Below, piece after piece: positions 1 to 42,208 of a DNA stretch of 55,055 nucleotides. Below the pieces are notes generated by a model. That model was not told where the DNA came from, ran no database searches, and saw only the letters and a program-made list of their open reading frames with translations. How positions within the stretch are numbered: position 1 is the stretch's first letter; each line of letters opens with the position of its first letter. The DNA lies in the IMG/VR virus record IMGVR_UViG_3300044844_001196, positions 1 through 55,055 of that record; one strand, given 5' to 3'. The translations under genes were made by a program, and so were the position numbers. The stretch comes from a virus.

Positions 1-3000
1 AATATTTTAAACGGATTTAATAATTTAGTAAGTTCCCTTGGAACGTTTACAACAATCCTAAATGGATGTTGTAATTCCGCATGTTCTATTTCATCAACTA
101 TTAGTGGAGGGTATAAAAACACAACAAGTGGGTCATATAGTTTTATAGGGGGTGGTAGGAACAATACCACTAGTAATATCTATGGTTCAATTATTAATGG
201 TACCGGAAATACCTCATCGTCTGTTTCATCATTAATTGGTAACGGTATTGGTAATACTGTCTCATCAAGATATGGTAGTGTAATTAATGGTATATGTAAT
301 TTATCACAAGGAGCTTCTTTTAACACCATCACTAATGGATGTTTGAATAACATATGTGGTAAAACCTCTTGTTTTTCAAGTATTATTAATGGTAGTGGTA
401 ATACAATTAATACGTCAACATACTCATTTATAGGTAATGGTAGTGGTAATACATTATCAGCAAACACAACAGGGTCATTCATTTCTAATGGTTATAACAA
501 TATTGTTTCGGGGTGTAGCTCTTATATAGGTAATGGTAACTCTAATACTATAAGTGGTAATTATTCCGCAATTATTAATGCCGGTAAAGGATTTACCTAT
601 GGGGGAAGTATTATATGTGGTTCACACTCAACAATAATAAGTAATAATGGAAACGTTGGTAAATGTGGGGGATGGATTTGTGGGGACTCAAATTTAATCG
701 GTAATTCAACATCATCTTGTATTTGGCGTAATACTTTTTCATTACAAATGAACACCAATTGCTCTCAAATTATTGATGGTAATGATAAAGGATGTTCTTA
801 TAATCAAATTATTGGAGGTACTAATAGTTTTGTTTGTGGTAGTTACGCGACCACTGTTATTAATGGATTTGGACATCAGATTAATAATGTGACTTACGGT
901 TTTGTTGGTAATGGTAGTCATGTTATGGGAGGTCATAATAATGTTACAACGTCGGGTTATACATCAATAATAAATGGAAATAGTAATATTATTTGTTTTT
1001 CATCTCATTCGTTTATTGGTGGAGGGACATCAAACAGAATATGTGGGGCAGCTAAAAATTTGACAGGTGTTTGGTCATTTATTGGTAGTGGTTTTGGTAA
1101 CGGAACTTGTGGAGGTACACCTGATTGGAACAATTTAGTATTTTCACCATCAGGTGCTGTAACTCAATCATCAGGAACTTTTTCATTTATTGGAAATGGA
1201 TTTCAAAATAATACGACAGGAAGCGGGTCAACGGTTGTTAACGGTTATTGTAATTATAACAATGCTGATTGGTCATTTGTGGGTAATGGTAGTGGTAATA
1301 CATTAAATGCGTGTTACTCAACTGTTGTTAATGGAATTGGTAACTGTATTTGTAATTTAGCATATTACGGCTCAATACTTGTTGGAAGTGGTAATACTAA
1401 TAGTGGTTGTTATTCTACTATTGTAAGTGGTAATAGAAATAATATAGTTTCAAGACCATCTTCATTTATTGGTGGTGGGTGTTGTAATATTATAAGTGCT
1501 AACGTTTCTACATTTTTAATTACTGTTGTTGGAGGATGTTGTAATATTGGTTCAGGAGGTAATTCATTTATAGGTGCTGGAAGTTGTAACTCTAATAGTG
1601 GTGGGACATCATTTATTGGTGCGGGAGCTTGTAACACAGTATCATCAAGCTATTCTTCAATTGTTGGTGGAAGAGGGAATACTATTAATACTGGTTCTTA
1701 TTCATCTATTTTAGGTGGGATTTCAAATACTGTTTCTGGAGGTTATAGTGCGGTTTTAGGAGGATGTGGTAACACCTCAAGTAGTAAATATTCAACTATT
1801 GGCGGGGGATGTTTGAATACTAATTCAAGTGTTGCAGGATTTATAGGTGGTGGTCTTAGAAACTCAGGACTTACAGGTAATTATGTTACTGTAGTTGGAG
1901 GTGAATTAAATTGTACAATAGGTGCTTGGTCATTTATTGGTGGAGGACAATGTAATAGAAGTTGTTGTTCTTATTCTTTTATTGGTGGAGGACAATGTAA
2001 TGTTATTTCAGGACAAAGTACGACAATTGGTGGAGGGTTTAAAAATTCTGCGTGTTGTGACTTTGCGTTTTTAGGAGGGGGGTATCAAGGGATATCAAAT
2101 GGGTGTTATTCAGTATTAGGAGGAGGTTTAAATAATATTTCTTGTTTATTCTCAACATCTGTTTTAGGAGGTGCTAATAATTCTGGTCATACTTCATACT
2201 CATTTATTGGTGGTGGTATTTGTAATGCGGTTACTTCAGGTAGTGATTGTTCAGTAATTAATGGTGGATTCTGTAATAGGATATCTAATTTAAATTCATT
2301 TGTTGGTGGAGGAGGGTGTAATTCGGTTACAGGTCAATTTAGTGGTATTGTTGGAGGTAGTGGAAATACTGTGTCGTCTAATTTTTCATTCGCTGCTGGA
2401 TGTGGATTAACCGCTTCTGTGGCATGTACATTCTATTCTAATAATTTTTGTGGAACCACTTCAGTTAACTCTCCAAGTTTTAGCGGTTCTGTTGGTACTA
2501 TTTCAGGAACAAAAGGAAGTATAACTATAAGCGGTAGTTCCGTAGGAGCGTTAACCACATTTTGTGGAAGTGGAACAGTCGGAGGCGCTAGTTACATAGA
2601 TTTTATTAGAGTTACCAATAACTCAGGAGGTGCAACAAACCCAAATAAAACTTTTAGAGTGAATGGTACAGGAGGACTTGAAGTCGTTAACAGCACTTAT
2701 GGTACAATTATACTCTCACTTACGGATGCCGGAGTATTAAGTACACCAGGAGGTGGAACATCCGATTTAAGAAGAAAAATAAATGTTCAGTATATTAATG
2801 ATGAAATCACACCACATATTTTAAATTTAAAACCTGTTAAATTTGAATATAAAGATTATAGCGGCACAACAAGACACGGTTTTATTGCGCAAGATGTACT
2901 TATTGCATACCCTGAATTAGTGCTTGGCGATGGTGAAAAAGAAGACGGAACATACGGACTAGATTATGATGGTATTTTATCTCTAACAGTTAAATCATTA

Positions 3001-3072
3001 CAAGAAACAATATTAAGAGTTGAAAAACTTGAAAAAGAAATTGAATTACTTAAAAATTCATCTTCACAATAA
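1..3072 (+). CDS. Tail fibre/spike protein, C-terminal part, beta-roll repeats plus S74 chaperone domain (5' partial)
   Basis: The frame is open from the first base, so the gene starts outside the window; an internal TTG at 343 is not the likely start. About 900 residues are repeats of roughly 13-20 residues built on I(I/V)NGxGN and IGGGxCN cores, like the YadA-head/left-handed beta-roll repeats of trimeric fibres. The last ~100 residues are a peptidase S74 intramolecular chaperone: the junction TSDLRRKINV carries the self-cleavage serine, followed by LNLKPVKFEY, GFIAQDV and a terminal coiled coil. In this family the chaperone drives trimerisation and then cleaves itself off. Cysteines recur at the same repeat position, which is unusual. 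A glycosyltransferase, SET protein and sulfotransferase follow on the same strand, which suggests that the fibre or its receptor is modified. Confidence 0.85.
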   Translation, partial: NILNGFNNLVSSLGTFTTILNGCCNSACSISSTISGGYKNTTSGSYSFIGGGRNNTTSNIYGSIINGTGNTSSSVSSLIGNGIGNTVSSRYGSVINGICNLSQGASFNTITNGCLNNICGKTSCFSSIINGSGNTINTSTYSFIGNGSGNTLSANTTGSFISNGYNNIVSGCSSYIGNGNSNTISGNYSAIINAGKGFTYGGSIICGSHSTIISNNGNVGKCGGWICGDSNLIGNSTSSCIWRNTFSLQMNTNCSQIIDGNDKGCSYNQIIGGTNSFVCGSYATTVINGFGHQINNVTYGFVGNGSHVMGGHNNVTTSGYTSIINGNSNIICFSSHSFIGGGTSNRICGAAKNLTGVWSFIGSGFGNGTCGGTPDWNNLVFSPSGAVTQSSGTFSFIGNGFQNNTTGSGSTVVNGYCNYNNADWSFVGNGSGNTLNACYSTVVNGIGNCICNLAYYGSILVGSGNTNSGCYSTIVSGNRNNIVSRPSSFIGGGCCNIISANVSTFLITVVGGCCNIGSGGNSFIGAGSCNSNSGGTSFIGAGACNTVSSSYSSIVGGRGNTINTGSYSSILGGISNTVSGGYSAVLGGCGNTSSSKYSTIGGGCLNTNSSVAGFIGGGLRNSGLTGNYVTVVGGELNCTIGAWSFIGGGQCNRSCCSYSFIGGGQCNVISGQSTTIGGGFKNSACCDFAFLGGGYQGISNGCYSVLGGGLNNISCLFSTSVLGGANNSGHTSYSFIGGGICNAVTSGSDCSVINGGFCNRISNLNSFVGGGGCNSVTGQFSGIVGGSGNTVSSNFSFAAGCGLTASVACTFYSNNFCGTTSVNSPSFSGSVGTISGTKGSITISGSSVGALTTFCGSGTVGGASYIDFIRVTNNSGGATNPNKTFRVNGTGGLEVVNSTYGTIILSLTDAGVLSTPGGGTSDLRRKINVQYINDEITPHILNLKPVKFEYKDYSGTTRHGFIAQDVLIAYPELVLGDGEKEDGTYGLDYDGILSLTVKSLQETILRVEKLEKEIELLKNSSSQ

Positions 3073-3092
3073 CTAATACATATTTTATATTT

Positions 3093-3110
3093 TAATCAAA
3101 GCTTTGATTA
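3093..3110. repeat. 18-bp perfect palindrome between fibre and glycosyltransferase genes
   Basis: TAATCAAAGCTTTGATTA reads the same on both strands and ends on the A of the downstream ATG. It could be an operator or an mRNA hairpin that masks the start codon or marks a processing site. No U-tract follows, so it is not a standard terminator. A 14-bp palindrome lies at the equivalent place in the second fibre cassette (37044-37057). Confidence 0.6.
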
Positions 3111-4000
3111 TGAATATAATTTTCCAAATTAATGGTGGTATAGGTAAATGTATTTTGGCAACCGCAGTTACCGAAGTAATTAAAAAAAAATACCCAAATT
3201 CTAAACTTATTGTTGTCTCAGGATATCCTGATGTTTTCTTAAACAATCCACATGTTGACCGAGCGTTTAATTTTGGTGAACATTCTTATTTTTATTCTGA
3301 CTATATTGAAGATAAAGAATTCAAACTTTTGGCTCATGACCCATACCTTGAAACTAACCATATTAATAAAACAGAACATTTAATTGAAACTTGGTGTAAA
3401 CTATTTGATTTAGAATATAATGGTGAACAACCAAACATATATCTAACTGAGAGAGAGATTAATTTCTTTTCAAGAAAATACACAACTGATAAACCAATCA
3501 TGGTTATTCAAACTAATGGAGGGGTTGAACAAAATTTGAAATACTCTTGGGCTCGTGACATTCCATTCCATATTGTTGAAAGTGTGATTGAAAAATTTAA
3601 ATATGGTTACACTATTTTTCACCTGAAAAGAGAAGACCAACCATCTTTCGCTAATACAATCCCTGTCACTGATACTTTTAGGTCAGTTGCAACTTTAATT
3701 GCGATAAGTAATAAAAGATTTTTTATGGATAGTTTTGGTCAACATGTTGCGGGAGCTCTAAAATTAGAATCCACAGTTTTGTGGATTGTTAACTCACCAA
3801 AAGTATTTGGATATGAAACAAATAAAAATATTGTTTCAAACCAATTCACAAAAAAACCAGAATTAAAAATGTCATATTTAAACAAGTTTAACATAATGGG
3901 AGAACCTTTGGAATTCCCATATAATGATGAGTTTGAAATGTTTGACATTGAGAACATATTAAATTCTTTAAGTAACAATGAACATCCCGATACCAAATAA
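3110..4000 (+). CDS. Glycosyltransferase, GT9/heptosyltransferase-like
   Basis: The 296-residue protein opens with a nucleotide-binding-like segment (IIFQINGGIGKCILATAV) and has the GT-B-like layout of ADP-heptose-type transferases: an early glycine loop, a middle VIQTNGG...YSWARDIPF segment and a late FMDSFGQHVAGAL segment. The ATG at 3110 is preferred over the TTG at 3104. It is clearly paralogous to 33824-34702, sharing YFYxDYIxDK, TNHIxKxxHLIExWC and IQTNGG. It overlaps the SET gene by 23 bases and follows a fibre gene. Inference: it transfers a sugar either to a phage protein or to a host surface glycan; donor and acceptor cannot be read from the sequence. Confidence 0.65.
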   Translation: MNIIFQINGGIGKCILATAVTEVIKKKYPNSKLIVVSGYPDVFLNNPHVDRAFNFGEHSYFYSDYIEDKEFKLLAHDPYLETNHINKTEHLIETWCKLFDLEYNGEQPNIYLTEREINFFSRKYTTDKPIMVIQTNGGVEQNLKYSWARDIPFHIVESVIEKFKYGYTIFHLKREDQPSFANTIPVTDTFRSVATLIAISNKRFFMDSFGQHVAGALKLESTVLWIVNSPKVFGYETNKNIVSNQFTKKPELKMSYLNKFNIMGEPLEFPYNDEFEMFDIENILNSLSNNEHPDTK

Positions 4001-4364
4001 AATTGAAGTGAAATCGTCCCCAATTCACGGATTTGGGGTTTTCGCGATTGAAAAAATATTAAAAGATGAAATAATTGAAACCTGTTATTCAATTTTTTTC
4101 AAAACAGATTTAGGGTCAAACGATGATATATTACTAAAATATCGTTTCTCATATCCTTGTGGGGCATCTCCAATAAAGTACGCAATACCTCTTGGGTATG
4201 GGTGTATTTACAATCATAGTGATGATAATAATGCAACATGGACATGTGATTCAGATAATGGAATGTATTATTTTATTGCGGTTAAAGATATTGAGCCAGG
4301 TGAAGAAATTTGTACATCATATGGAAAAAAAGAATATTGGGAATCAGTAAAAAAAATATATTAA
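3978..4364 (+). CDS. SET-domain protein, putative lysine methyltransferase
   Basis: This 128-residue protein is almost only a SET domain. It has GFGVFA (residues 18-23, SAM-binding N-terminal motif), the hallmark NHS (79-81) inside CIYNHSDDNNATW, and GEEICTSYG (108-116) carrying the catalytic tyrosine region. SET enzymes move a methyl group from SAM to protein lysines; small bacterial and viral examples exist. The start overlaps the glycosyltransferase gene by 23 bases and the sulfotransferase starts 2 bases after its stop, so it is translationally embedded in a modification cassette. Its substrate is unknown; the neighbouring fibre or a host protein are both possible. Confidence 0.8.
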   Translation: MNIPIPNKIEVKSSPIHGFGVFAIEKILKDEIIETCYSIFFKTDLGSNDDILLKYRFSYPCGASPIKYAIPLGYGCIYNHSDDNNATWTCDSDNGMYYFIAVKDIEPGEEICTSYGKKEYWESVKKIY

Positions 4365-4366
4365 AA

Positions 4367-5191
4367 ATGGAAAGATTATTTTTTCAGAGTTCACTACCAC
4401 GAGCAGGTAGTACTCTACTACAAAACATTTTAGCTCAAAACCCTGACATATACGCAACACCAACAAGTGGTGTTTTAGAGTTAGTGTACGCGGCTAGAGC
4501 AAACTATAGTAATTCACCTGAATTCAAAGCTCAGGACCCTGAACTTATGAAAAACGCATTTTTATCTTTTTGTAAAGAGGGGTTAACTGGTTTTTATGAA
4601 AGTATTACTGATAAAAAATATGTGGTTGATAAAAGTAGAGGATGGGGTGTCCATTATGGATTTTTACAACAAATTGTTGATAAACCAAAAGTTGTTTGTA
4701 TGGTGAGAGACCTTAGAGATATCTATACCTCTATGGAAAAAAACTTTAGAAAAAATCAGCACAAAGATTTTGGGATTGTAAATCATTCGGATTTGAAAGG
4801 AACATCAACACCTAAAAGAATAGACATATGGGCAAACTCACAACCTGTTGGTATGGCGATTGAAAGACTACAAGAAATTTTCAGACAAGGTATTAATGAA
4901 AATATGATGTTTGTTAAGTATGAGGATTTATGTTTGTATCCCGATTTAATCATGAGAAAAATTTATGAATATTTTGAAATACCTTATTTTGAACATGATT
5001 TTGAAAACATTGAACAAATAACAAAAGAAGATGATGAAGTGTATGGTATTTTTGGGGACCATAAGATAAAAAAGACTTTAGAGTTATTACCATCGGATGC
5101 TCAAAAAATTTTAGGTTCAGATATTTGTGATTGGATTTATAATAATTATGGGTGGTATAACGAGATTTTTAAGTACCCTAAAAATATGTAG
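4367..5191 (+). CDS. Sulfotransferase family protein (copy 1)
   Basis: The 274-residue protein has the 5'-phosphosulfate loop SLPRAGSTLLQN (residues 9-20) and a 3'-phosphate-binding region VRDLRDIYTSMEK (113-125), the two PAPS-binding signatures of the sulfotransferase fold. It resembles protein or carbohydrate sulfotransferases that use PAPS. The ATG at 4367, two bases after the SET stop, is chosen because the 271-residue paralogue at 36227-37042 starts at the equivalent residue; upstream in-frame ATG 4310 lies inside the SET gene. PAPS could come from the APS kinase encoded at 35539-35967. The acceptor is unknown. Confidence 0.8.
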   Translation: MERLFFQSSLPRAGSTLLQNILAQNPDIYATPTSGVLELVYAARANYSNSPEFKAQDPELMKNAFLSFCKEGLTGFYESITDKKYVVDKSRGWGVHYGFLQQIVDKPKVVCMVRDLRDIYTSMEKNFRKNQHKDFGIVNHSDLKGTSTPKRIDIWANSQPVGMAIERLQEIFRQGINENMMFVKYEDLCLYPDLIMRKIYEYFEIPYFEHDFENIEQITKEDDEVYGIFGDHKIKKTLELLPSDAQKILGSDICDWIYNNYGWYNEIFKYPKNM

Positions 5192-15400: not shown

Positions 15401-16856
15401 AACAACTTGTAATTTCAGTTCCTAATGACAAATTTTTAATTGACATATGAACTGTCATCCCAACTGATGGAACCACACTTTGACCTACCCAATTTACGCC
15501 TGTCACTTGGTAATTAATACCTGAACAACATTCTTGTAATATATAATAAGCGTTTTTATTAACCGACGTTGAAGATGGTGTAGGTGTTGGAGTTTGAGTA
15601 GGACCTGGAGTTGGTGTAACAGGGTTACTAATTAAGTAATTTAATGTTATTGTGTTACAACCAGGACTTGAAGAACCTGCTCCTGATATTGATTGACCAT
15701 TTATTAGGTCGTATAAGAAAATAACTTGGAAACTTGAACCATTATAAATTAATCTATATACTGAATAATTGTTTACTAAAAATAAACTATTACCTTGAGT
15801 TGCGATACCCTCAACTTGAGTCAATCCCAAAGTTGTTAAATTTACCGAATTTTGTAAATTACCCGAAACATCATATTCATTTAAGTACTTAACACCTGTG
15901 TTACTTGTTACAGACATTATATACGTGTTTGATGAAGTTTTAATTAAATCACCTGTGATTGAATAACCTGTTGGTAATTGAAATAATAATGTGTTGGATG
16001 CTGTTGAAGTGCTTACATTTAATTCATAAATTGAATTACTTGAATTACAAATCAACACATTATTACTAATACTTGCTAAACCTCTACCTAACGTAATTGT
16101 TGTTGTAATAGTGTTAACAAGTGTTAATGTTGTCTTATTATATCGGTATATTGTATTACCTAAGTTTGAAGTATATAGATAACTTGATGAAACTGCGACA
16201 TCGTTTGAAGATAACGCAGGTGTTAGAGTTCCTAAAAGATTATATGTATTTGCGCTAGGATTAAGTGTCATAATCCTATCCGCGTTAGCGTCTATTAAAT
16301 AAATTGTACAATCAACAAATCCGTTAGTTGGAGTGATTGTTGGTGTGGGTGTTTTGGTAGGTGTTTTGGTAGGTGTTTTGGTAGGTGTTTTGGTAGGGGT
16401 CTTAGTAGGTGTAACTGATGGAGTTTTTGTTTTTGTTGGGGTATGAGTTTTTGTTGGTGTCGGAGTTTTTGTTTTTGTTGGTGTAGGTGTCGGAGTGGTG
16501 GCAGCTCCACCGGAATCTTCGCAAATTAGAAACTCCGATTTACAAACAGTACAGCTAGCACAACTATTAGTTAAACTTGCACACGGTCCATAACCACCAC
16601 TACCTACAAACCCAGACCAAGTGTATGTTGAAAGAGATGGATTAGGTCCTGGAAGTGAGGATACAATTATTCCACAATCACCTGATGTGAAACCTGAACT
16701 TACAATTATATATACTTCACCTGTTTGAACAGTTATAGTATCACCTAAGTAATTAGTATAGTCAGGAATACCGCTAGGGGCGTAAAGAACATACTGAGTT
16801 TGAGATACACCGTTACAACATCTATTTACTTTATAATAACCTGGTAATAAAGCCAT
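12489..16856 (-). CDS. Giant modular Cys-rich adhesin with PT/KTPT linkers and propeller-like domains
   Basis: The 1455-residue protein is a string of small beta domains separated by linkers of PTPTPTK and KTPTKTPTKT type. The N-terminal module is YYKVNRCCNGVSQTQYVLY; a similar module recurs internally (YYILQECCSGINYQV). Two ~220-residue segments (starting CTIYLIDANADRIMTLN and CPIYVNAGKNIYINNP) have six-blade-like repeats reminiscent of NHL/SMP-30 beta-propellers. Further Cys-containing domains fill the C-terminal half. The ATG overlaps the stop of the upstream 74-residue gene (TAATG). Length and modularity suggest a long flexible surface fibre. No anchoring or S74 domain is visible. Confidence 0.65.
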   Translation of the reverse strand: MALLPGYYKVNRCCNGVSQTQYVLYAPSGIPDYTNYLGDTITVQTGEVYIIVSSGFTSGDCGIIVSSLPGPNPSLSTYTWSGFVGSGGYGPCASLTNSCASCTVCKSEFLICEDSGGAATTPTPTPTKTKTPTPTKTHTPTKTKTPSVTPTKTPTKTPTKTPTKTPTKTPTPTITPTNGFVDCTIYLIDANADRIMTLNPSANTYNLLGTLTPALSSNDVAVSSSYLYTSNLGNTIYRYNKTTLTLVNTITTTITLGRGLASISNNVLICNSSNSIYELNVSTSTASNTLLFQLPTGYSITGDLIKTSSNTYIMSVTSNTGVKYLNEYDVSGNLQNSVNLTTLGLTQVEGIATQGNSLFLVNNYSVYRLIYNGSSFQVIFLYDLINGQSISGAGSSSPGCNTITLNYLISNPVTPTPGPTQTPTPTPSSTSVNKNAYYILQECCSGINYQVTGVNWVGQSVVPSVGMTVHMSIKNLSLGTEITSCFVLISFSTVFNGTLPLYGPPTVASTTITKYGANDCATCLSSEGITCVTPTPTPTVTKTPTKTPTKTPTKTPTKTPTKTPTPTPTSGTDSCPIYVNAGKNIYINNPITNTTTLVGQLVGGTNQGPDLAVSDNYFFSYLNHVISRYNKQTLQFVDSRTLTYNGNPFYLGAGLDSLNDNLIITESNGILYQVNLLPNPATITELFPLGDGTGISYLNGDILKLTNGKYITTEYQTGGGPVAYLVRQYSSDNSGTIEVEINVGSLGYNDIYGIGIKAGNIYLYRGNSLGQVLQLTYNSGSWVLTPAGGTSVYNQGAASLIICNTVSLSNVQGNPSPAPAPIPASPTPTITPTKTKTPTPTHTSNLAQATSTPTPTNTPTKTKTPTPTKTKTPTPTPSTTSKSIKPTSTPTRTITPTKSQVCTSPNILSAVYLGGDQFYVTWETTTGNCNIVTLYYSFDDITYSSSTFGCGPSVTIAASGYLTGPLYLYTLITCTGGGTASPSKVFTTTAVAVTPTITPSNTPTKTPAKTSTPTKTPTATLTLTPTNTVTPSITPTNNPTPTVTRTSVSFNTPTPTPTKTVTPSITPTITPTTYTTCPLQVYTVYTNDPSYSQYDGVYNLISEWNGQSYYWNSSSLNVIYYNTGTTRWCLSQTLDGPCVLEGKSPCFNKCPDLCDDILYIGLVTPTPTPSDITCSDFWFEAQFECSVDGSGSYPGLTPTPTLTPTVTSTPTSTPTPTQYCSGKSVDVSATTITISTSPTPTKTPTPTPLPFDVPIAGTVTYNSFEQFLLCPISKKLVDCNSDQIFYVTGSLGEVPIGAVVSVYINNISYCVTYVDVVSTAPTHSLTSVASVDLLNCVFCTPGISPSPTPTYTPTPTPSSTLTPTPSLQAYTYIYRVCRSYPLSPIIVIQTQPVPNVSLGQGFTSQPTSPSQGKKVTFINVIPGWSPNYPADIVHTGNYFGVASNISDTPNCPPST
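15172..15231 (-). repeat. Five exact tandem copies of a 12-bp unit
   Basis: TTAGTCGGAGTC on the + strand is repeated five times without mismatch and encodes TPTK on the minus strand. The identity at third codon positions suggests recent expansion. Confidence 0.9.
16348..16395 (-). repeat. Four exact tandem copies of a second 12-bp unit
   Basis: GGTGTTTTGGTA on the + strand is repeated four times and encodes the same TPTK motif with different codons from the 15172 array, so the two arrays expanded independently. Confidence 0.9.
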
Positions 16857-32283: not shown

Positions 32284-33213
32284 ATGGAGAATTATTATAA
32301 TGTTTTAGGAGTTTCAGAAAATTCCACACAAGAAGATATTAAAAAGGCTTATAAAAAATTAGCAGTACAACACCATCCTGATAAAGGTGGGAATGAGGAA
32401 ACATTTAAAAAAATTTCCGAAGCGTATGAGACCTTAGGTGACTCTGAAAAAAAACAACAGTATGATTCACAGAGAAACAATCCATTTGGTGGTGGAGGGG
32501 ATGGTTTTGACCCATTCAGTATGTTTTCAAATATGTTTAATAACATGGGGGGAGCTCAAAGAAAAAATCCCGATAAAATTGTTAATTTAAAAGTTGGTAT
32601 TTTTGAGGCGTATAAAGGTGGAAGAAAAAAAGTTAACTATATGAGACATGACAAATGTGATGTTTGTTATGGTACTGGTGGGGACAAAGAAAACTGTAAA
32701 TCGTGTCAGGGACAAGGGTTTTTCATACAGAGAGTTGGGAATGGATTTTTCCAAACTGTACATAAAACTACTTGTCAGGCTTGTAACGGTAAAGGTTTTA
32801 AATACACTAAGGCTTGTTATTCTTGTAATGGTAATACAACTATGGTAAAAATGCAAAACATCGATATTGAGTTACCAAGTGGAGTTGATGACGGTACTTT
32901 CTTTAAATCACATGGAGGTGGTGACTATGCTAATGGTTCATACGGTGATTTATTATTTAAAGTTGAGGTTGTCCCTGAAAATAACTTCGAGAAAATAGGA
33001 CCTGATTTAGTTTATAACTATGATTTTACTATCGAAAATCTTAACGATGATAAAATTACCATTCCACATCCTAACGGAAATTTACAAATTGATTTTCCGA
33101 TTGATTTAGAAACAAAAAAACCTTTACGGGTTAAAGGTAAAGGTTTTTACAGAGAAGTTAGTGACTTGTATATAAAATTTAATTTTAAATACAAAAAATT
33201 AAAAGAAGGATAA
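32284..33213 (+). CDS. dnaJ: DnaJ-like co-chaperone
   Basis: The 309-residue protein has a J domain (1-65) with the HPD tripeptide (31-33) that stimulates DnaK, then a Gly/Phe linker ([13 protein letters not shown]). A zinc domain with four CxxCxGxG-type repeats follows ([31 protein letters not shown]), then a shortened client-binding domain. It is about 65 residues shorter than bacterial DnaJ and lacks the C-terminal dimerisation region. Phage J proteins usually recruit host DnaK for virion assembly or replication. Its 3' end overlaps a minus-strand mini-gene. Confidence 0.9.
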
Positions 33214-33805: not shown

Positions 33806-33836
33806 CAAATATAATAAAAAAAATTAATTTACCAAA
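33806..33836 (-). promoter_or_regulatory. Bacteroidetes-type promoter (minus strand)
   Basis: On the minus strand: TTTG (33836-33833), 19 bases, TATATTTG (33813-33806), 16 bases before the ATG of the secreted protein. It overlaps the 3' end of the glycosyltransferase gene. Confidence 0.75.
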
Positions 33837-34702
33837 CTAATCAATTTATTAATATCAAACATTTCGTCAATAGACATATAAGGACATTCATGATTTGGAC
33901 CTTCAAATGAATAGTCAAAAAGATATGAGTCAATTAACTTAACTGTATCAGTTGGTAACTTTGGTGATATATTATTATGTATACTATATCCAAAATTATT
34001 TGGTGATGTTCCTACCCATATAACATTAGATTTAAGATTTAGAGCTGCCGCAGCATGTTGTAAACATGAGTCAATTAACACCCTTTTGTCTGATGATAAA
34101 ATGATTAAACATAAATCAACTGCGGACAATTCATAATCAATAACTTCGGCATTTGGAAGTTGTCTTGATGATTTTTTACAAATTTGAATTATATGGTGTG
34201 TTTCACTAAATTTATTAGCAATTGATGATGACACATCAAATGGGATATCTCTGGTCCATGAATAAGATTGATTTGAATTAAACGCGCCCCCATTTGTTTG
34301 AATGAGTAATATTGGTTTTTCTCTTTGCCATTTAGACAATGAACGTTTTTGAGAAATATTTAAACTAATACTTGGTGTTTGATTGGTATACTCAATCCCG
34401 AGTAAGTCACACCAATTTTCAATTAGATGTGATTTTTTAAGTATATGATTTGTTTGATAATATGGTTCTTGTCGAAAGATTATTGTGTCTTTATCTTTAA
34501 TATAATCATCATAAAAATATTGAGTGGTACCTAATTTGTATACTCTATAAACTGAAGAATGGTTTAAGAATACTTCAGGGTATGAGGCGACTACTACAAT
34601 TTTTCTGTCTTCGTATTTCTCTTTTAATGATGTTAATAGAGACGTGGCGGCAATGTTTTTACCCAATCCTCCCTGTATGTGCCAAACAATATATTTTTCC
34701 AT
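33824..34702 (-). CDS. Glycosyltransferase, GT9-like (copy 2)
   Basis: The 292-residue paralogue of 3110-4000 shares IQGGLGKNIAATSLL, YFYDDYIKDK, TNHILKKSHLIENWC, LIQTNGG and YSWTRDIPF. The ATG at 34702, one base after the DUF2061 stop, is favoured. It is the last gene of the tail-fibre/sulfation operon. The presence of one such gene beside each fibre gene argues for a specific acceptor in each module. Donor sugar unknown. Confidence 0.65.
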   Translation of the reverse strand: MEKYIVWHIQGGLGKNIAATSLLTSLKEKYEDRKIVVVASYPEVFLNHSSVYRVYKLGTTQYFYDDYIKDKDTIIFRQEPYYQTNHILKKSHLIENWCDLLGIEYTNQTPSISLNISQKRSLSKWQREKPILLIQTNGGAFNSNQSYSWTRDIPFDVSSSIANKFSETHHIIQICKKSSRQLPNAEVIDYELSAVDLCLIILSSDKRVLIDSCLQHAAAALNLKSNVIWVGTSPNNFGYSIHNNISPKLPTDTVKLIDSYLFDYSFEGPNHECPYMSIDEMFDINKLISLVN

Positions 34703-34703
34703 A

Positions 34704-35147
34704 TTAATTTTTAGAACCAATTCTTATAAATTTATACCATACTCTTTCGTGGAAGAAATAAACAATTGGTTTAAGTAACAATTCTCCCACACCTAATAAC
34801 GATGATAACTCAATTGATGCCCCCAATGAGTACGCAACTCCTACGGTAATTAAAGTACCTAAAATTCTGTAAGATATTGTTTTTAAAATATGTCTGGTTA
34901 ATACCGATTCTTGTTTAACTGTTGTTATATATGCTACAGTGTTTTTAATCTCACAGTGACCCTCACAACTGATATGCCATTTATATTCGTTTAATTCAGG
35001 TATCCAGTCTTTAGTAGTATAAGTGTGACCATCAACAACAATATCAGAAACTAAAATTTCAGAACCATTCTCAATCAATCTCCATCTATCACATTCATTA
35101 GTTGAGTGAGTGTTAAATCTTATTTGAAATGTTTTAATTTTTTTCAT
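34704..35147 (-). CDS. DUF2061 membrane protein with N-terminal extension
   Basis: Residues ~85-145 form a DUF2061 domain: RHILKTISYRILGTLITVGV, LGVGELLLKPIVYFFHERVW, with two membrane helices. In bacteria this domain is often found next to or fused with sulfate-activation enzymes such as CysC. The N-terminal ~75 residues (FNTHSTNECDRWRLIENG, HISCEGHCEI) look like a soluble beta domain. It overlaps the nucleotidyltransferase gene by four bases, and APS kinase lies next upstream, which supports a role in sulfate handling. Confidence 0.75.
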   Translation of the reverse strand: MKKIKTFQIRFNTHSTNECDRWRLIENGSEILVSDIVVDGHTYTTKDWIPELNEYKWHISCEGHCEIKNTVAYITTVKQESVLTRHILKTISYRILGTLITVGVAYSLGASIELSSLLGVGELLLKPIVYFFHERVWYKFIRIGSKN

Positions 35148-35542
35148 AGTTTACCTTCCAATTTCATTTGTTCTCTTATTTTAGTTGCAGAAATATCGTG
35201 TATTTCTTGAGGGGGAATTCTTTCAATAATATCATACCCAACACCTCTACCAAATTCTATTGAACATATATCAGGTATTACCATCACTTTAACTCTATCA
35301 CTCAATTCAGAATAGTGTGACTCAATATTACTCTTAACTTCTTGAGCGGTGAATGGATTTTTTTCATCAGGTTCAATGTCTCTGATACAAATCAATACAT
35401 TCTTACCTTCATCCATCGCTTGTTTAAATAACTCTTGGTGTCCTTTATGTAGTGGTTGCCATCTACCGACAAACATTGCAAATTGTCCATCTTTTGGTTT
35501 CAAAGATGACTGAACGTGAACTTTTTTATCCCAGTTACTCAT
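35144..35542 (-). CDS. HxGH nucleotidyltransferase (adenylyltransferase-like)
   Basis: The 132-residue Rossmann-like protein has GRWQPLHKGH (26-35, HxGH ATP site) and ISATKIRE (117-124, the ISSTxIR motif), both typical of NadM/PPAT/cytidylyltransferase enzymes. It overlaps APS kinase upstream and DUF2061 downstream by four bases each. Given APS kinase next door it might form APS from ATP and sulfate, since ATP sulfurylase belongs to the same superfamily. Its motifs look closer to NMN or other adenylyltransferases, and an NAD or sugar-nucleotide role is equally open. Confidence 0.75.
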   Translation of the reverse strand: MSNWDKKVHVQSSLKPKDGQFAMFVGRWQPLHKGHQELFKQAMDEGKNVLICIRDIEPDEKNPFTAQEVKSNIESHYSELSDRVKVMVIPDICSIEFGRGVGYDIIERIPPQEIHDISATKIREQMKLEGKL

Positions 35543-35967
35543 TTTTTATTAAAAGGTATTAAATCAAGACATTCGTCTATAGTTTTATTTGTTGTGTCAA
35601 TATCAATAAAGTTTTCAGTTGGTTGTTCATACTCCTTAACAAAGTTTTGTTCTCTACCTCTGATTTCACTTGTGTGAACATAGATTTCACAAACTTCATT
35701 AGTTTCTTTTAATGAGTCCCTCATTCTTTTATAAGGAGCAACAACAGAAATTACAACTGTAAATCCCTTGTGGTCTAAAAAACGAGCCAAATCAACAACA
35801 GATTGGATATTTTTAATTCTACCTTCAGGTGAATAATCAAAGTTTTGAAATAACTCCCTCAAACCATCTCCATCAACATTAATACAATTATCTGAACACT
35901 TCTCAATTAAAGCATTCGCCAATGTTGTTTTTCCTGAGCCAGGTTGACCTGTGAACCAATAAATCAT
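35539..35967 (-). CDS. cysC: Adenylylsulfate (APS) kinase
   Basis: The 142-residue P-loop kinase has Walker A GQPGSGKT (7-14), the APS motif NVDGDGLRELF (30-40), SVVAPYKRMRD (74-84) and a C-terminal FVKEYEQPTENFIDIDT. APS kinase phosphorylates APS to PAPS, the donor for sulfotransferases. It is shorter than bacterial CysC (~200) but the catalytic motifs are present. It is four-base-overlapped on both sides, so PAPS formation is co-expressed with the fibre and sulfotransferase genes. Confidence 0.85.
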   Translation of the reverse strand: MIYWFTGQPGSGKTTLANALIEKCSDNCINVDGDGLRELFQNFDYSPEGRIKNIQSVVDLARFLDHKGFTVVISVVAPYKRMRDSLKETNEVCEIYVHTSEIRGREQNFVKEYEQPTENFIDIDTTNKTIDECLDLIPFNKK

Positions 35968-36221
35968 AGTTGTGTATAAGTTTTACCTGATTGAATCGTA
36001 TCGTTTATTTCCGTTAATTGAGTTTCAGTTAATGCTGACATAAACCAATCTTTACTTTTCATAACTTCTAAATGTTTGTAATTTCTCTCGACTGTAGTTT
36101 TTTTAACTTCAATTTTTTCTGTTGGTAATTTAGAACCATCAATAATTCCATTTATTAGTGTCACCGAATTAAAGGCTGAATTAATTGATTTAGTTGGGTT
36201 TGGTATTTCATCGTTTTCCAT
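35964..36221 (-). CDS. Hypothetical protein, 85 aa, in sulfation operon
   Basis: No family recognised. The N-terminus is polar (NDEIPNPTKSINSAFNS), the C-terminal half helical (KTTVERNYKHLEVMKSKDWF, TETQLTEINDTIQSG). It starts five bases after the sulfotransferase stop and overlaps APS kinase by four bases. A fibre-associated or assembly role is possible. Confidence 0.6.
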   Translation of the reverse strand: MENDEIPNPTKSINSAFNSVTLINGIIDGSKLPTEKIEVKKTTVERNYKHLEVMKSKDWFMSALTETQLTEINDTIQSGKTYTQL

Positions 36222-36226
36222 AAAGC

Positions 36227-37042
36227 TTATTTATAATTAAATTTATTGAAGAACCAATTATAGTGTTCGTATAATCTATTACTATTATCAGCACCTAATA
36301 TTTCGTTATAATCTTCTTTTGGTTGAGATAATGTATTTTTTATTGAGTGGTCACCAAAAATTCCGTGTATGACATCATTTTCAATAGTTAACTGCTCAAT
36401 ATTATTAAAGTCGTGTTGATAAAAAGGTATCTCCAAATAATCGTAAATCCGTTTTAACTCTTTATCAGGATTTGATGTTAGGTCTTCAAATCTAACAAAA
36501 AGAATATCTTTGTCATATCCTTGGTGAATTGACTCAAATAACCATTCTAATGATGGACCAATTGGGGGAGATATTGAAAAATGGTCAACTCTTGATGTTG
36601 TTGTCATATTTTTTAATTCATTGACATTTACTAATAGAGGGTCTTTATGTGAATTTTTTCTATAGTTTTTTTCCATTGAAGAGAAAATTGCCCTTAGGTC
36701 CCTAACCATACAAATAATTTTAGGTGTCCCGTAAAACCACTTTAAGAAATGATAGTTACCTATCCACGCTCTACTCTTATCAATAACATAGGGTCTATCA
36801 GTTATGTTATCGAAAAAACCCGTTAAACCTTTTTCACAAAAACTTTTTAATCCCTCTCTCATTTCATCAGGATTTTGTGCTTTAAATGCGTCACCTGTTG
36901 TATATATGGTTCTAGCTTGTAAAAGTAGCTCAATCACTCCTGAAGTTGGTGTTGAATAAATTTCAGGATTTTGCATTAATATGTTTTGAATTAATGTTGA
37001 CCCTGCTCTTGGTAATGATGCGTTAAAAAATATTTTCTTCAT
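36227..37042 (-). CDS. Sulfotransferase family protein (copy 2)
   Basis: The 271-residue paralogue of 4367-5191 shares SLPRAGSTLIQNIL (PAPS loop), NPEIYSTPTSGVIEL, CMVRDLRAIFSSMEKNYRKN and GIFGDHSIKNTL. The copies are diverged (for example RGWGVHYGFL versus RAWIGNYHFL), which suggests different acceptors. It directly follows the fibre gene; a 14-bp palindrome sits just before its start. Confidence 0.8.
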   Translation of the reverse strand: MKKIFFNASLPRAGSTLIQNILMQNPEIYSTPTSGVIELLLQARTIYTTGDAFKAQNPDEMREGLKSFCEKGLTGFFDNITDRPYVIDKSRAWIGNYHFLKWFYGTPKIICMVRDLRAIFSSMEKNYRKNSHKDPLLVNVNELKNMTTTSRVDHFSISPPIGPSLEWLFESIHQGYDKDILFVRFEDLTSNPDKELKRIYDYLEIPFYQHDFNNIEQLTIENDVIHGIFGDHSIKNTLSQPKEDYNEILGADNSNRLYEHYNWFFNKFNYK

Positions 37043-37043
37043 A

Positions 37044-37057
37044 GGTTAATATTAACC
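37044..37057. repeat. 14-bp palindrome before sulfotransferase start
   Basis: GGTTAATATTAACC is perfectly self-complementary and ends one base before the ATG. It holds the same place (after the fibre stop, before the first modifying enzyme) as the palindrome at 3093-3110. Confidence 0.55.
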
Positions 37058-37079
37058 CACAAAACTAAAAATGTCAAAG

Positions 37080-40000
37080 TTAAGCTAATAAAACTTTGTA
37101 AGAATTTCCGTTAATTCTTATTTCCCAAGTCCTTGAGGAACTGCACGACTCAGTTGTTATAGTACCAATAGGAATTGAGGAACTACCTACAACAAATTGA
37201 TTATTTCCAGTTGCCGTAGCATAACCACCAAGAATAATTGAATAATTATAATTTCCTGAATTTGTATTATTACCAATTGCAATATTTCGGTACCCTGAGG
37301 TGTTTTGATATAATGATTTATATCCAAGTGCAATATTTGATTGTCCATAGTTAGAAAATAAAACACAATAGCCCAATCCAATATTATGAGAACCACCATT
37401 ACTTCCATACATTGATTTAAGACCTAAAAGAATATTATAACTACCACCGCAAGACGTTCTTCCAAAACTATAATATCCAATAGCAATGTTGTGATTTCCA
37501 ACAGGTACTGGACCAGTATAACCAATTGATTTAGTCCCTATTGCAATGTTATTATTACCTCCATTAGCCCTATATAGAGCACCACTACCTATTGCAACAT
37601 TTTCACTGCCATATACATTAAAAGTGAGAGTATTATGTCCTAAACTCACATTTAAATTTCCATAATAGTTGCAAGATTGAGATTCTTGCCCTATCGCAAT
37701 ATTACCTGAAAATTTTGAGTAATTTGTTGTGTAGTACGGCGCTCCTGAGTTTGTTGTACCACCATATAGGGAATTCAATCCGATTGCAATATTTGATAGT
37801 CTACTTTCACCACCAACCCAATCATGTAATGTATTGGGCCCAATTGCTATATTATCAGATTTTTTGTCCGATTTACGAAGTGATTGATAACCTATCGCAA
37901 TATTTCTAACCCCATCAGTATTATAACATAACGCCTGATTACCAATTGCAATGTTGTCTCTACCTGTACTTGTATAGTATAATGAGTTATATCCTAATGA
38001 AATATTGTTACTACCTGTTGTAATTTCTCCACCTGAATTTCTACCTAACGCAATGTTGTGTACACCTGTAGTATTACTATATAAAGAACTTCTACCTATT
38101 GCAATATTATAATTACCCGTAAAATTGTTGGCCATTGTACCTCTACCTAACGCAACATTACCACAACCTTGGTTGGAATAACATCCTGAATTACTCATCA
38201 AAGCTCTTCTACCAATTGCAATATTTTCACAACCATTATTATTATTTAACATTGAACACCTACCAATTGCAACGTTAAAATCAGGTTTTGGTCCTTGTGC
38301 TCCTGTATTGTAATACAATGCCGCCTGACCAATTGCAATGTTATGGTCTGAAGCCGAAGTATTGTTTCTTAAAGAATCATATCCGATTCCAATATTACCA
38401 ATACCACTTGTTAAACAATTCGAGTTTTGTCTTATAGCATTAGTCCCAATTGCAATATTCTTGGAACCGTTGGGATTACAATACAATGATGTAACACCTA
38501 AGGAAATATTATCATCACCTGCACATTTATTTTTTTGACTTTTGAAACCCAATGCAATGTTACGAGAAAAACTAATTGAACATCCGTAACCATATAACGC
38601 ATAATCACCTATACCGATATTACAATAACCTGTAGACAACTTTTTTAAAGAATTAGTACCTATCCCAATATTACGAGAAATACTAGTCCCCTCACGTAAT
38701 GATTTATCACCAATTGCAATATTTCCAAACATACATTGAGAGATATTATAAAGAGAAGAACTCCCCATAGATATGTTATTATTCCCACATGCTTGGTACA
38801 TATTTTTATATCCAATGGATATATTGTAATTCAGGCCATAACATACTGATTGAGAACTGGACATAGATTTATGACCTAAGGATATGTTAAAATCACCTAT
38901 GGTTTTACTTCTTAAAGACTTATACCCAATTGATGTATTACCTTGTCCAAGATTACTTGTTTGTGACTGTTGTCCTATCGCAATGTTATTCCCTCCAGGA
39001 GCCACTCCACTAAATGCAACACCACCAATTGATATATTAGTACATACGTTAAAATTACCTCTACCAACACGAACACCATTCACATTCAACGTTGGTGAGG
39101 TTGCGGCACCATCAAATGTTAACAATGATTCTGCAACTGCGCCTCCACTACCATCAGATGTTAAAACCTGATTGTTTGAACCTGGCACCGTGAACTGAGG
39201 TGACCCACTAAAAACTAATGTATTTGTTGACGCTGAAGTAATTGATATATTAACACCACTAAAATTTATAAAAGTTCCAGTATTTGCGGAGAATTGTGTG
39301 GTACCACTAATTCTTACAGATTGAAATGATGATGGTAAGTTTTGATATGTGGTTGCAGATATTGTAGTTGCAGTTAATCCTTGTAGTGAAGTATTTCCTG
39401 TTACGGTTAAGTTGCCATTAATAGTTCCACCACTTTTATCAAATTTATTACTTATATCGGTTTGAATTGTTTGAATTATTGAACATCCGCTTAATGTACC
39501 ACAAGTCAAAGCCGAATTGTCTGAAAATGGTGTTATTCCATAAGAATAATGTTGGGTACCTTCAGTGACTAAAGTTATTGAATGTGATTGATTACTAGTA
39601 TTCGTTGCTCTTACTTTTACAACAATTCTGTCAGTTGTATTTATTGATGAACCCGAATAATATCCGTCCGTTAATTGCATTGATGGATTTGGGGAATTTG
39701 TAGTTACTGGAGCCGGGTCAGTTGTAACAAGTAGAGTTTCGGTTCCCCCTGTGGTTCTTAAATAAACCTCACAGAATATATCAAAAGATGCGTTACTATT
39801 TTGTTTGAAAGAATGAAGATAAAAGCTCCAATATCCTGCAGGTATTAGAGATGCGTTTGGATATCCAGTTGGTGTTTGAAATGAGGTAATCGTACTAGTT
39901 ACTCCATTGTTAATTGTAACAGCCGTTATTTGTTGTGAATTTGTTGTTCCACTTGGACTAAATTCTCTATATGGTGGTTGTGAGTTTGATAAATTTAAAT

Positions 40001-40463
40001 AATATACTTGACCTCCAGGTCCTCCTATTGGAAGTCCAGTAACCGTAAAAGTTCCTCCTGTATTATTTAAAAAGGTAATTTCTCCATTTGTATAAGTTCC
40101 TCCTGTAACATAAACATCGGTTGGTAAATTCTGATAAGTTGTTGCTGAAATTGTGTTAGCAGTTAGTCCACTTTGGAATATAGTCCCCCCCGATACAGTT
40201 CCACCACTTAACGGAAGATATACACCTGTTGTTCCTCCAGCAGGACCCCAATTGGCGTTACCTGAAGCATCACAAGTTAATACATAACCATTTTGTTCAG
40301 TTCCATTAGAATACGTAAATCCACTATTTATAGTAAGTCCCGATAAAAAGATTGGATTAACAGGAATGGCTCCACCGATACGATAAACAATACCTGTTGA
40401 TAAGTCAGATTGTAAGACGTAATTATAAGAATCTTTAATTAATTGGTTTTTAATATCGGCCAT
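37080..40463 (-). CDS. Tail fibre with IAIG beta-roll repeats
   Basis: The 1127-residue protein opens with a fibre attachment segment (MADIKNQLIKDSYNYVL, VYRIGGAIPVNPIFLSG) and the usual GYVLTCDASGNANW joint. A beta-rich middle (to ~470) follows. The rest is dozens of ~20-30-residue repeats of NIAIGxxSL / NISLGxxSLY type, similar to YadA-head beta rolls. It lacks an S74 domain and ends TWEIRINGNSYKVLL. It heads the minus-strand modification operon. Repeat Cys residues are frequent, as in the 1-3072 fibre. Confidence 0.8.
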   Translation of the reverse strand: MADIKNQLIKDSYNYVLQSDLSTGIVYRIGGAIPVNPIFLSGLTINSGFTYSNGTEQNGYVLTCDASGNANWGPAGGTTGVYLPLSGGTVSGGTIFQSGLTANTISATTYQNLPTDVYVTGGTYTNGEITFLNNTGGTFTVTGLPIGGPGGQVYYLNLSNSQPPYREFSPSGTTNSQQITAVTINNGVTSTITSFQTPTGYPNASLIPAGYWSFYLHSFKQNSNASFDIFCEVYLRTTGGTETLLVTTDPAPVTTNSPNPSMQLTDGYYSGSSINTTDRIVVKVRATNTSNQSHSITLVTEGTQHYSYGITPFSDNSALTCGTLSGCSIIQTIQTDISNKFDKSGGTINGNLTVTGNTSLQGLTATTISATTYQNLPSSFQSVRISGTTQFSANTGTFINFSGVNISITSASTNTLVFSGSPQFTVPGSNNQVLTSDGSGGAVAESLLTFDGAATSPTLNVNGVRVGRGNFNVCTNISIGGVAFSGVAPGGNNIAIGQQSQTSNLGQGNTSIGYKSLRSKTIGDFNISLGHKSMSSSQSVCYGLNYNISIGYKNMYQACGNNNISMGSSSLYNISQCMFGNIAIGDKSLREGTSISRNIGIGTNSLKKLSTGYCNIGIGDYALYGYGCSISFSRNIALGFKSQKNKCAGDDNISLGVTSLYCNPNGSKNIAIGTNAIRQNSNCLTSGIGNIGIGYDSLRNNTSASDHNIAIGQAALYYNTGAQGPKPDFNVAIGRCSMLNNNNGCENIAIGRRALMSNSGCYSNQGCGNVALGRGTMANNFTGNYNIAIGRSSLYSNTTGVHNIALGRNSGGEITTGSNNISLGYNSLYYTSTGRDNIAIGNQALCYNTDGVRNIAIGYQSLRKSDKKSDNIAIGPNTLHDWVGGESRLSNIAIGLNSLYGGTTNSGAPYYTTNYSKFSGNIAIGQESQSCNYYGNLNVSLGHNTLTFNVYGSENVAIGSGALYRANGGNNNIAIGTKSIGYTGPVPVGNHNIAIGYYSFGRTSCGGSYNILLGLKSMYGSNGGSHNIGLGYCVLFSNYGQSNIALGYKSLYQNTSGYRNIAIGNNTNSGNYNYSIILGGYATATGNNQFVVGSSSIPIGTITTESCSSSRTWEIRINGNSYKVLLA

Positions 40464-41368: not shown

Positions 41369-42208
41369 ATGCTATCATATATTGGAGGTAAGAGTAAAAT
41401 TGGTAAATGGATTGTTCCGTTTTACCCAAAAGATATGGAAACATATGTGGAGACTTTTGGAGGGATGTTTTGGTGTTTCTTTAATATGGACTTAAAACAA
41501 TTTCCAAATCTTAAACGAGTTGTTTATAACGACTTTAATCCACTTAATTACAATTTGTTTATGTGTCTTCAAAATCCCGAAGTTCTTTTATCTGCGGTGA
41601 ATAGAATTCCCTGTCAGGAAAAAGGAGAGGAAGTGACCCCACCAATTTACAAAGAACAGTTTCAGGATTTTCAAAAAGAAATATTTGGGGAGGGATTTGC
41701 AATTAATTACCCTGACTATGATATCGCTGCTAAGTACGCTTATGTTTTAACTCAGGTATTCAGTGGTTCAAAACCAGAAACAAGTTCATTTATTGATTTA
41801 AAAGGTAAATACAAATCAAAATATCTTACATTCAGAGATAAATTATCTAAACCTGAATGGGTTGAGCATTTTAATAAAATAAGTCATTTCAGATTAGGTG
41901 ACTTTGAAAATGTTATTAAAGAATTTGATAGTCCTACTACATATTTTTATCTTGACCCTCCATATTGGAAAACTGAAAATTATTACTCAAACCATGATTT
42001 TGATAGAGATGACCATGAGCGTCTTGCGAATTCTTTAAAAAATATACAAGGAAAATTTTCACTATCGTATTATGATTTTGAACTATTACACACTTGGTTT
42101 CCTGAAAGTCAATATAAATGGGAGAAAAAAGAATTTGCTAAGGCAGCCGCTGCTAAAAAAGGAAAATCACAAAATATGGGTGAGGAATTGTTAATTATGA
42201 ATTATTGA
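41369..42208 (+). CDS. dam: DNA adenine methylase, D12 class
   Basis: The 279-residue protein has YIGGKSKIGKWI (N-terminal motif, residues 4-15), VETFGGMFW (SAM motif I variant of FxGGG) and the catalytic YLDPPYWKT (about 194-202, DPPY at 196-199). D12 enzymes methylate N6 of adenine, often in GATC. It stands alone without a cognate restriction gene, so it likely protects phage DNA from host enzymes. Recognition site cannot be predicted. Confidence 0.85.
   Translation: MLSYIGGKSKIGKWIVPFYPKDMETYVETFGGMFWCFFNMDLKQFPNLKRVVYNDFNPLNYNLFMCLQNPEVLLSAVNRIPCQEKGEEVTPPIYKEQFQDFQKEIFGEGFAINYPDYDIAAKYAYVLTQVFSGSKPETSSFIDLKGKYKSKYLTFRDKLSKPEWVEHFNKISHFRLGDFENVIKEFDSPTTYFYLDPPYWKTENYYSNHDFDRDDHERLANSLKNIQGKFSLSYYDFELLHTWFPESQYKWEKKEFAKAAAAKKGKSQNMGEELLIMNY

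Follow-up and report, generated by a model that had tools for sequence, protein, structure and literature searches.

The window, by which we mean the whole 55,055-nucleotide stretch of DNA analysed here, from a large uncultured phage (IMG/VR record IMGVR_UViG_3300044844_001196), carries a cassette that appears to encode the activation and transfer of sulfate, together with a GT9-type enzyme and fibres. The original prediction had suggested such a phage-encoded system, and it is supported by conservation: the search of other phages for the same gene order that it proposed found the linkage kept in hundreds of viral contigs. Seven genes occupy 33824-40463 on the minus strand in the order fibre, sulfotransferase (ST), an 85-aa protein (p85), a short APS-kinase-like protein (APSK), an HxGH nucleotidyltransferase (NT), a DUF2061 protein and a GT9-fold glycosyltransferase (GT), and the genes, coordinates, strand and order agree with those first described. 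The four-base overlaps said to link most of the genes were found (as ATGA) only at p85-APSK, APSK-NT and NT-DUF2061, whereas the fibre-ST junction is a gap of 37 bases and the ST-p85 junction one of 5 bases. APSK lies no more than two genes from NT in all of the 79 distinct viral loci of NT that include sequence upstream, so the operon is not a chance assembly; its linkage is far beyond chance. We refine the earlier reading to two separable modules, ST/GT and APSK/NT/DUF2061, with ST and GT going with the fibre. Some loci have ST and APSK with no detected NT (L285, L316 and L321), and one group of NT loci has no ST or fibre nearby (L055, L080-L083 and L086). The lack of a nearby ST was considered as counter-evidence and rejected, since a sulfotransferase is found elsewhere in 8 of 20 such records, in several of them adjoining another fibre. 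Literature searches found no relevant paper on a phage PAPS cassette, on a phage APS kinase with a sulfotransferase, or on an APS kinase-nucleotidyltransferase fusion.

NT (35144..35542, minus strand, 132 aa) matches CTP_transf_like (33.6 bits; cut-off 21), and its family is unnamed in Pfam, NCBIfam and PHROGs alike. Its nearest relative in fold and sequence is archaeal NadM, of the HxGH superfamily, with which it has the motifs GR(F/W)QPxHxGH and NPFT in common. The NMN-stacking Trp segment and C-terminal part of NadM are absent from NT, which has an invariant xGRxVGY motif of its own. A role as NMN adenylyltransferase was rejected because the pocket for NMN is missing and the score against the NadM equivalog TIGR01527 is 33 bits, far below 181.2. 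Membership of the ATP sulfurylase family PF01747 was also rejected, at 17 bits against a gathering score of 24.3; among 46 virus records, none had an ATP sulfurylase over the cut-off, with weak matches only. The original prediction assigned the nucleotidyltransferase no role; our results suggest that its unnamed family does the work of ATP sulfurylase.

The association of NT with APS kinases extends to fusions. One phage protein family, phrog_10255, joins both halves, and cellular genomes encode NT-APSK fusions (L136, L132, L129, L133 and L144) as well as fusions with the reverse domain order (L127, L140, L150, L158 and L240). The kinase parts of several exceed the apsK equivalog cut-off of 138.7 bits (L127, 172; L136, 203; L150, 150; L240, 157; L140, 151), and in L119 NT adjoins a full canonical APS kinase of 268.6 bits. 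In haloarchaea, APS_kinase was found in 6 of 40 genomes; five of the six carry NT with neither ATP sulfurylase nor CysD, and in the remaining one a canonical ATP sulfurylase adjoins the kinase. Across cellular NT genomes, many of which are incomplete MAGs or single-cell genomes, 32 of 44 have no PF01747 and no strong CysD, and a PF13469 sulfotransferase is present in 34 of 44 compared with 2 of 14 controls. Pairing or fusion with an APS kinase and replacement across genomes are what would be expected of an ATP sulfurylase, and here the likeness is one of functional analogy, not of family membership. NT is predicted with good confidence to make APS from sulfate and ATP. Because it is NadM-like without an NMN pocket, is fused to APS kinases and has this distribution in haloarchaea, making APS is its most likely function, and APSK and NT are therefore most likely a miniature PAPS synthase. 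This is similar to the bifunctional PAPS synthetases (human PAPSS1/2, Aquifex-type SAT/APS kinase), in which an APS kinase is likewise fused to or paired with an HxxH/HxGH adenylyltransferase and feeds sulfotransferases. In the phage type, however, the adenylyltransferase is a NadM-like domain of 110-130 aa instead of an ATP sulfurylase of roughly 400 aa, and the kinase is cut to 142 aa.

This short P-loop kinase, APSK (35539..35967, minus strand), matches the adenylyl-sulfate kinase structure 7yq0 at 8e-18 and APS_kinase PF01583 at 68 bits (cut-off 21.1). It keeps the motifs DGDxLR, GRxxNI, APYxxxR and YExP with a shortened lid, and its score of 77.6 bits against TIGR00455 is below the equivalog cut-off. 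Judged by homology, it very probably phosphorylates APS to PAPS. ST (36227..37042, minus strand, 271 aa, clade A) is a Sulfotransfer_3 protein (PF13469, 65.9 bits; cut-off 27) that also matches Sulfotransfer_1. It carries the 5'-phosphosulfate loop PRxGST and the Arg and Ser for the 3'-phosphate, and its PAPS-binding positions P11, R12, G14-T16, R114 and S122 are invariant in 30 sequences. Its best PDB match is the protein-tyrosine sulfotransferase TPST1 (3e-5).

For GT (33824..34702, minus strand), the probable start is the ATG at 34702, one base past DUF2061, rather than the TTG that extends the ORF to 34720. No glycosyltransferase family of Pfam matches GT to E 1. Its AlphaFold model (pLDDT 92) finds GT9 enzymes first in Foldseek (3tov, 7.8e-10; WaaF; TibC), so the label GT9-like is right, although GT has only 11-15% identity to WaaC/WaaF and TibC and no Pfam GT9 match. 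TibC glycosylates an autotransporter protein. The DUF2061 protein (34704..35147, minus strand, 147 aa) has a conserved N-terminal domain, which is a separate ORF in some relatives, and a DUF2061 membrane domain (PF09834, 55.6 bits; cut-off 23.1) confined to residues 87-137. DUF2061 had been described as known near sulfate-activation genes; this holds strongly in phages (71 of 84 loci), but none was seen near NT in cellular loci, and none of the DUF2061 papers found concerned sulfate, going by title and the opening of the abstract. We speculate that, at the membrane, it helps to supply sulfate or anions. p85 (35964..36221, minus strand) belongs to no family and is mostly near NxAIG fibres in the loci fetched; it is perhaps a fibre accessory protein or chaperone.

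The operon fibre (37080..40463, minus strand, 1127 aa) matches the virion/tail-spike families PHROG 6002 (3e-61) and PHROG 4636 (1.5e-59) and contains 31 NxAIG-type repeats (NIAIGxxSL) spaced about 17 residues apart. The window also contains a second cassette, fibre-GT-SET-ST at 343-5191 on the plus strand, which the original prediction missed. It comprises a fibre of 909 aa with a C-terminal Peptidase_S74 endosialidase chaperone domain (343..3072), a paralogous GT with 40% identity to that of the operon (3104..4000), a SET-domain protein of 128 aa (3978..4364; PF00856, 1.1e-13) and a paralogous ST of clade B with 51% identity to the first (4310..5191). The SET-domain protein is a possible protein lysine methyltransferase, and its presence hints at a protein target. 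Among the loci, an NxAIG-repeat fibre adjoins clade A ST in 33 of 35 and clade B in 0 of 29 (p=3e-16), and a fibre-like gene lies upstream in 28 of 38 ST loci compared with 5 of 26 NT loci without ST. The matching of clade to fibre could come partly from inheritance of one linked block. A pairing of ST and GT at one fixed site was rejected, because ST and GT move with the fibre in L036, a relative that shares the backbone of the window: they adjoin another fibre, and only APSK-NT-DUF2061 is left at the operon site. A scan of fibre proteins without selection on ST or NT mostly matched an internal domain (residues 147-311) and not the repeats.

In the route that we propose, NT with its NadM-like fold would convert sulfate and ATP to APS, and the short APS kinase would convert APS to PAPS. 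The single APSK-NT-DUF2061 module would supply both ST and GT pairs, each fibre gene having its own. The GT9-type enzyme would add a sugar, and ST would sulfate that sugar or the protein. Such decoration of the adjacent fibre, within the infected cell, would give virions with sulfated, glycosylated fibres. The chances that the adjoining fibre is the target of ST and GT are about even, and the whole route, from PAPS module to a pair decorating its own fibre, may equally prove right or wrong.

The same PAPS chemistry could instead serve to modify the receptor, a polysaccharide or LPS on the host surface, and so prevent superinfection or the re-adsorption of phage to debris; the fibre linkage would then reflect a match to the receptor bound. 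Fibre linkage alone gives the same expectation for fibre and receptor modification. Serotype-converting enzymes can adjoin tail-spike genes, as in phage P22, which offers a precedent; GT9 enzymes include LPS heptosyltransferases, and GT2, GT10-like, DegT aminotransferase and epimerase genes lie near the cassette in other relatives. Cluster VI of Campylobacter jejuni HS:19, with CysDN, a transporter, CysC, a sulfotransferase and a glycosyltransferase, is a cellular parallel and was proposed to sulfate proteins or glycans (PMC8743553). Like the window it combines dedicated, non-assimilatory sulfate activation with a sulfotransferase and a glycosyltransferase, but it is cellular, CysDN-based and without fibre linkage or the NT family. 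We regard host-surface modification as rather unlikely, with evidence against it in the presence of two fibre-specific ST/GT pairs in one phage, the strict match of ST clade to fibre repeat type and the SET protein methyltransferase in the second cassette. Neither a lipid-sugar flippase nor a membrane enzyme of Gtr type was seen in the cassette.

NT might also make a different activated compound, such as NAD or an ADP-sugar used by the GT9 enzyme; PAPS would then be made from host APS. ADP-heptose is the donor used by GT9 enzymes, and HldE/GmhB logic combines a kinase, a HAD phosphatase, an HxGH transferase and a heptosyltransferase. NT is an HxGH protein with NadM as its nearest structure, many relatives have a gene for a HAD phosphatase between those for APSK and NT, and the heptose-enzyme family phrog_7878 gives a weak match to NT (8.5e-4). 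Synthesis of ADP-heptose in the manner of HldE was nevertheless rejected as the main reading, because the kinase partnered with NT belongs to the APS-kinase family, passing the equivalog cut-off in fusions, and not PfkB as in HldE, and no RfaE or HldE model was among the NCBIfam matches of NT to E 0.01. The NadM scores and the missing NMN pocket segment argue against NAD. NT also occurs without a GT9 gene, which is present in 32 of 54 NT loci, and it is found in haloarchaea with no ATP sulfurylase; such an alternative product is improbable. Still less probable is that APSK phosphorylates a substrate other than APS and that the gene group makes a non-sulfate decoration. The CysC-like kinase Cj1415, of Campylobacter MeOPN synthesis, reportedly has a cytidine diphosphoramidate as its substrate; the short lid and low equivalog score of APSK would suit such an exception. 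However, the adjoining sulfotransferase has invariant PAPS-binding motifs, cells have full APS kinases in the same place, and other sulfotransferase families lie near the APSK/NT pair, such as Sulfotransfer_2 in L044-L047 and L207; no glutamine kinase or amidotransferase was seen.

Our preferred reading, sulfation and glycosylation of fibres, bears on the PF13469 sulfotransferases of phages, whose role was stated to be unclear in 2023 (PMC10580990). The sulfotransferases of cyanophages S-SKS1 and S-SRM01 and of OM43 phages are of PF13469, as is the window ST, and in the passages considered neither a PAPS module nor fibre pairing is noted (PMC10580990). Identity to the window ST is only about 30%. 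The cassette offers these enzymes a source of donor, a glycosyltransferase as partner and a likely target. We tentatively propose, at somewhat less than even chances, that NT founds a new class of ATP sulfurylase, compact and derived from NadM, which occurs in hundreds of phages and also in bacteria and archaea, that it forms an unusually small PAPS synthase with APS kinase, and that phages sulfate and glycosylate the receptor-binding fibres of their own virions with a fibre-matched pair of enzymes. If NT makes APS, ATP sulfurylase has been replaced by a different family, one missed by the family libraries searched, in organisms that apparently have no ATP sulfurylase. Sulfation of fibres would modify virions in a new way and could affect adsorption and host range.

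All seven minus-strand genes of the original prediction were present as described in the window at 33824-40463, in the order fibre, sulfotransferase (ST, 36227-37042), 85-aa protein (p85, 35964-36221), short APS-kinase-like protein (APSK), HxGH nucleotidyltransferase (NT), DUF2061 and glycosyltransferase (GT). Pfam agreed with the assignments of ST, APSK, NT (CTP_transf_like) and DUF2061, and the fibre, which carries 31 NxAIG repeats, matched tail-spike and virion-structural PHROGs. GT had no Pfam glycosyltransferase match; GT9 glycosyltransferases were the first structural matches of its confident model, consistent with the predicted GT9-like identity. Three junctions were ATGA four-base overlaps and the remaining junctions were not. 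p85 belongs to an unnamed family of small proteins and is perhaps a fibre accessory or chaperone; of the 55 copies fetched, counted without dereplication, 46 have an NxAIG fibre within 3 kb. On the plus strand, the cassette is flanked by apparent genes for a DnaJ-like co-chaperone (32284-33213) and a Dam-like DNA methyltransferase (41369-42208), judged by sequence appearance. A 1455-aa minus-strand protein (12489-16856) matching phrog_15511 (unknown function) is a further candidate structural protein.

The window, a virus record of 55,055 bases, has a near-identical contig, L002, and two larger contigs (185 and 294 kb) have the same cassette with about 90% ST identity. Relatives of NT and ST were found in at least 586 and at least 576 IMG/VR stretches, respectively. 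The gene linkage was conserved in other phages, as the original prediction proposed to check: among 84 distinct NT loci, APSK lay within two genes of NT in all 79 with upstream sequence, and DUF2061 was near NT in 71. In the 54 loci with 3 kb on both sides, the ST family lay within 5 kb of NT in 33 and GT in 32. Of 51 loci viewed from ST, 37 had GT nearby, 34 had APSK or NT, and 35 had a fibre-like gene upstream (by a crude rule, at least 300 aa and >33% G+S+T+N). Sulfotransfer_2-type enzymes replace the PF13469 ST near NT in L044-L047 and L207. L006 (10247-10588) and about 28 loci have an HAD-superfamily phosphatase gene that separates APSK from NT or follows NT. It resembles hydrolases including a polynucleotide-3'-phosphatase; a role as PAP 3'-phosphatase, recycling PAP, or as sugar-phosphate phosphatase is a possible lead. 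In a group of large phages (L055, L080, L081, L082, L083 and L086), APSK-HAD-NT adjoins an FKBP-like gene, with no fibre, ST or GT nearby.

The L036 phage shares the downstream genes p131, DnaJ and p209 with the window. It retains APSK-NT-DUF2061 with a different fibre at that place, where ST, p85 and GT are missing; its ST and GT lie elsewhere, past a 1532-aa fibre-like gene, in the order fibre-GT-SET-ST. This layout led us to a paralogous plus-strand fibre-GT-SET-ST cassette in the window (343-5191), with a SET-domain gene between GT and ST, which the original prediction had left unmentioned. Its ST (4310-5191) and GT are 51% and 40% identical to the minus-strand pair. An NxAIG fibre adjoins STs of the minus-strand clade in 33 of the 35 fibre-containing loci, compared with 0/29 for the second-cassette clade (p about 3e-16), and a fibre-like gene lies upstream in 28/38 ST loci versus 5/26 NT loci without ST (p 3e-5), the significance of both tests being overstated through shared inheritance of linked blocks.

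NT appears to be the most novel element of the cassette. PF13469 sulfotransferases were already known in phages, with unclear function (PMC10580990), and sulfation clusters that include CysDN-CysC are known from cells (PMC8743553). The literature searched, short of a full search, contained no description of the phage cassette or of an NT-APSK fusion. In the 132-aa NT, GRWQPxH..H, R..NP, and GR and the G of the xGRxVGY motif are invariant, and IS.T..R forms a C-terminal signature. NT passes superfamily models only (TIGR00125, PF01467); NadM, CoaD and ATP-sulfurylase models all scored under their cut-offs, and no library names it. The structure nearest to its AlphaFold model (pLDDT 92.6) is archaeal NadM. 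In NadM a Trp stacks the nicotinamide, whereas NT lacks the segment bearing it.

Across 53 cellular loci, fusions of NT with APS kinase occur in either domain order, and in other cases NT adjoins a short or canonical APS kinase. The bacterial and archaeal fusions (L127, L132, L136, L140, L144, L150, L158 and L240) are scored by the family libraries used just as separate APS-kinase and nucleotidyltransferase domains. Sulfotransferases adjoin NT in several cellular loci (for example L133 and L240), and Sulfotransfer_5 is near NT in L118. Among 44 cellular NT genomes, mostly incomplete, PF01747 occurred in five and a CysD match of at least about 198 bits in nine (three above cut-off), with one or both in 12 and neither in 32; PF13469 was above cut-off in 34. 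Haloarchaea offered a clean test, with strong NT matches in 5/146 genomes, well apart from NadM matches (E <1e-37 vs 1e-9 to 1e-14). APS_kinase was found in six of 40 haloarchaeal genomes examined, five being the NT genomes, and ATP sulfurylase and CysD were absent from all five; the sixth has a canonical ATP sulfurylase beside the kinase. Since APS kinase requires APS, this genomic pattern is most simply explained if NT supplies it.

ST retains the PAPS-binding residues, and its nearest solved relative is a protein-tyrosine sulfotransferase. The modelled GT has among its fold neighbours TibC, whose target is an autotransporter protein. That ST and GT instead modify the host surface is a live rival to modification of the fibre. 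In the pathway we favour, NT would likely make APS, APSK would likely convert it to PAPS, and fibre-specific GT and ST would add sugar and sulfate, most likely onto the repeat-rich fibre.
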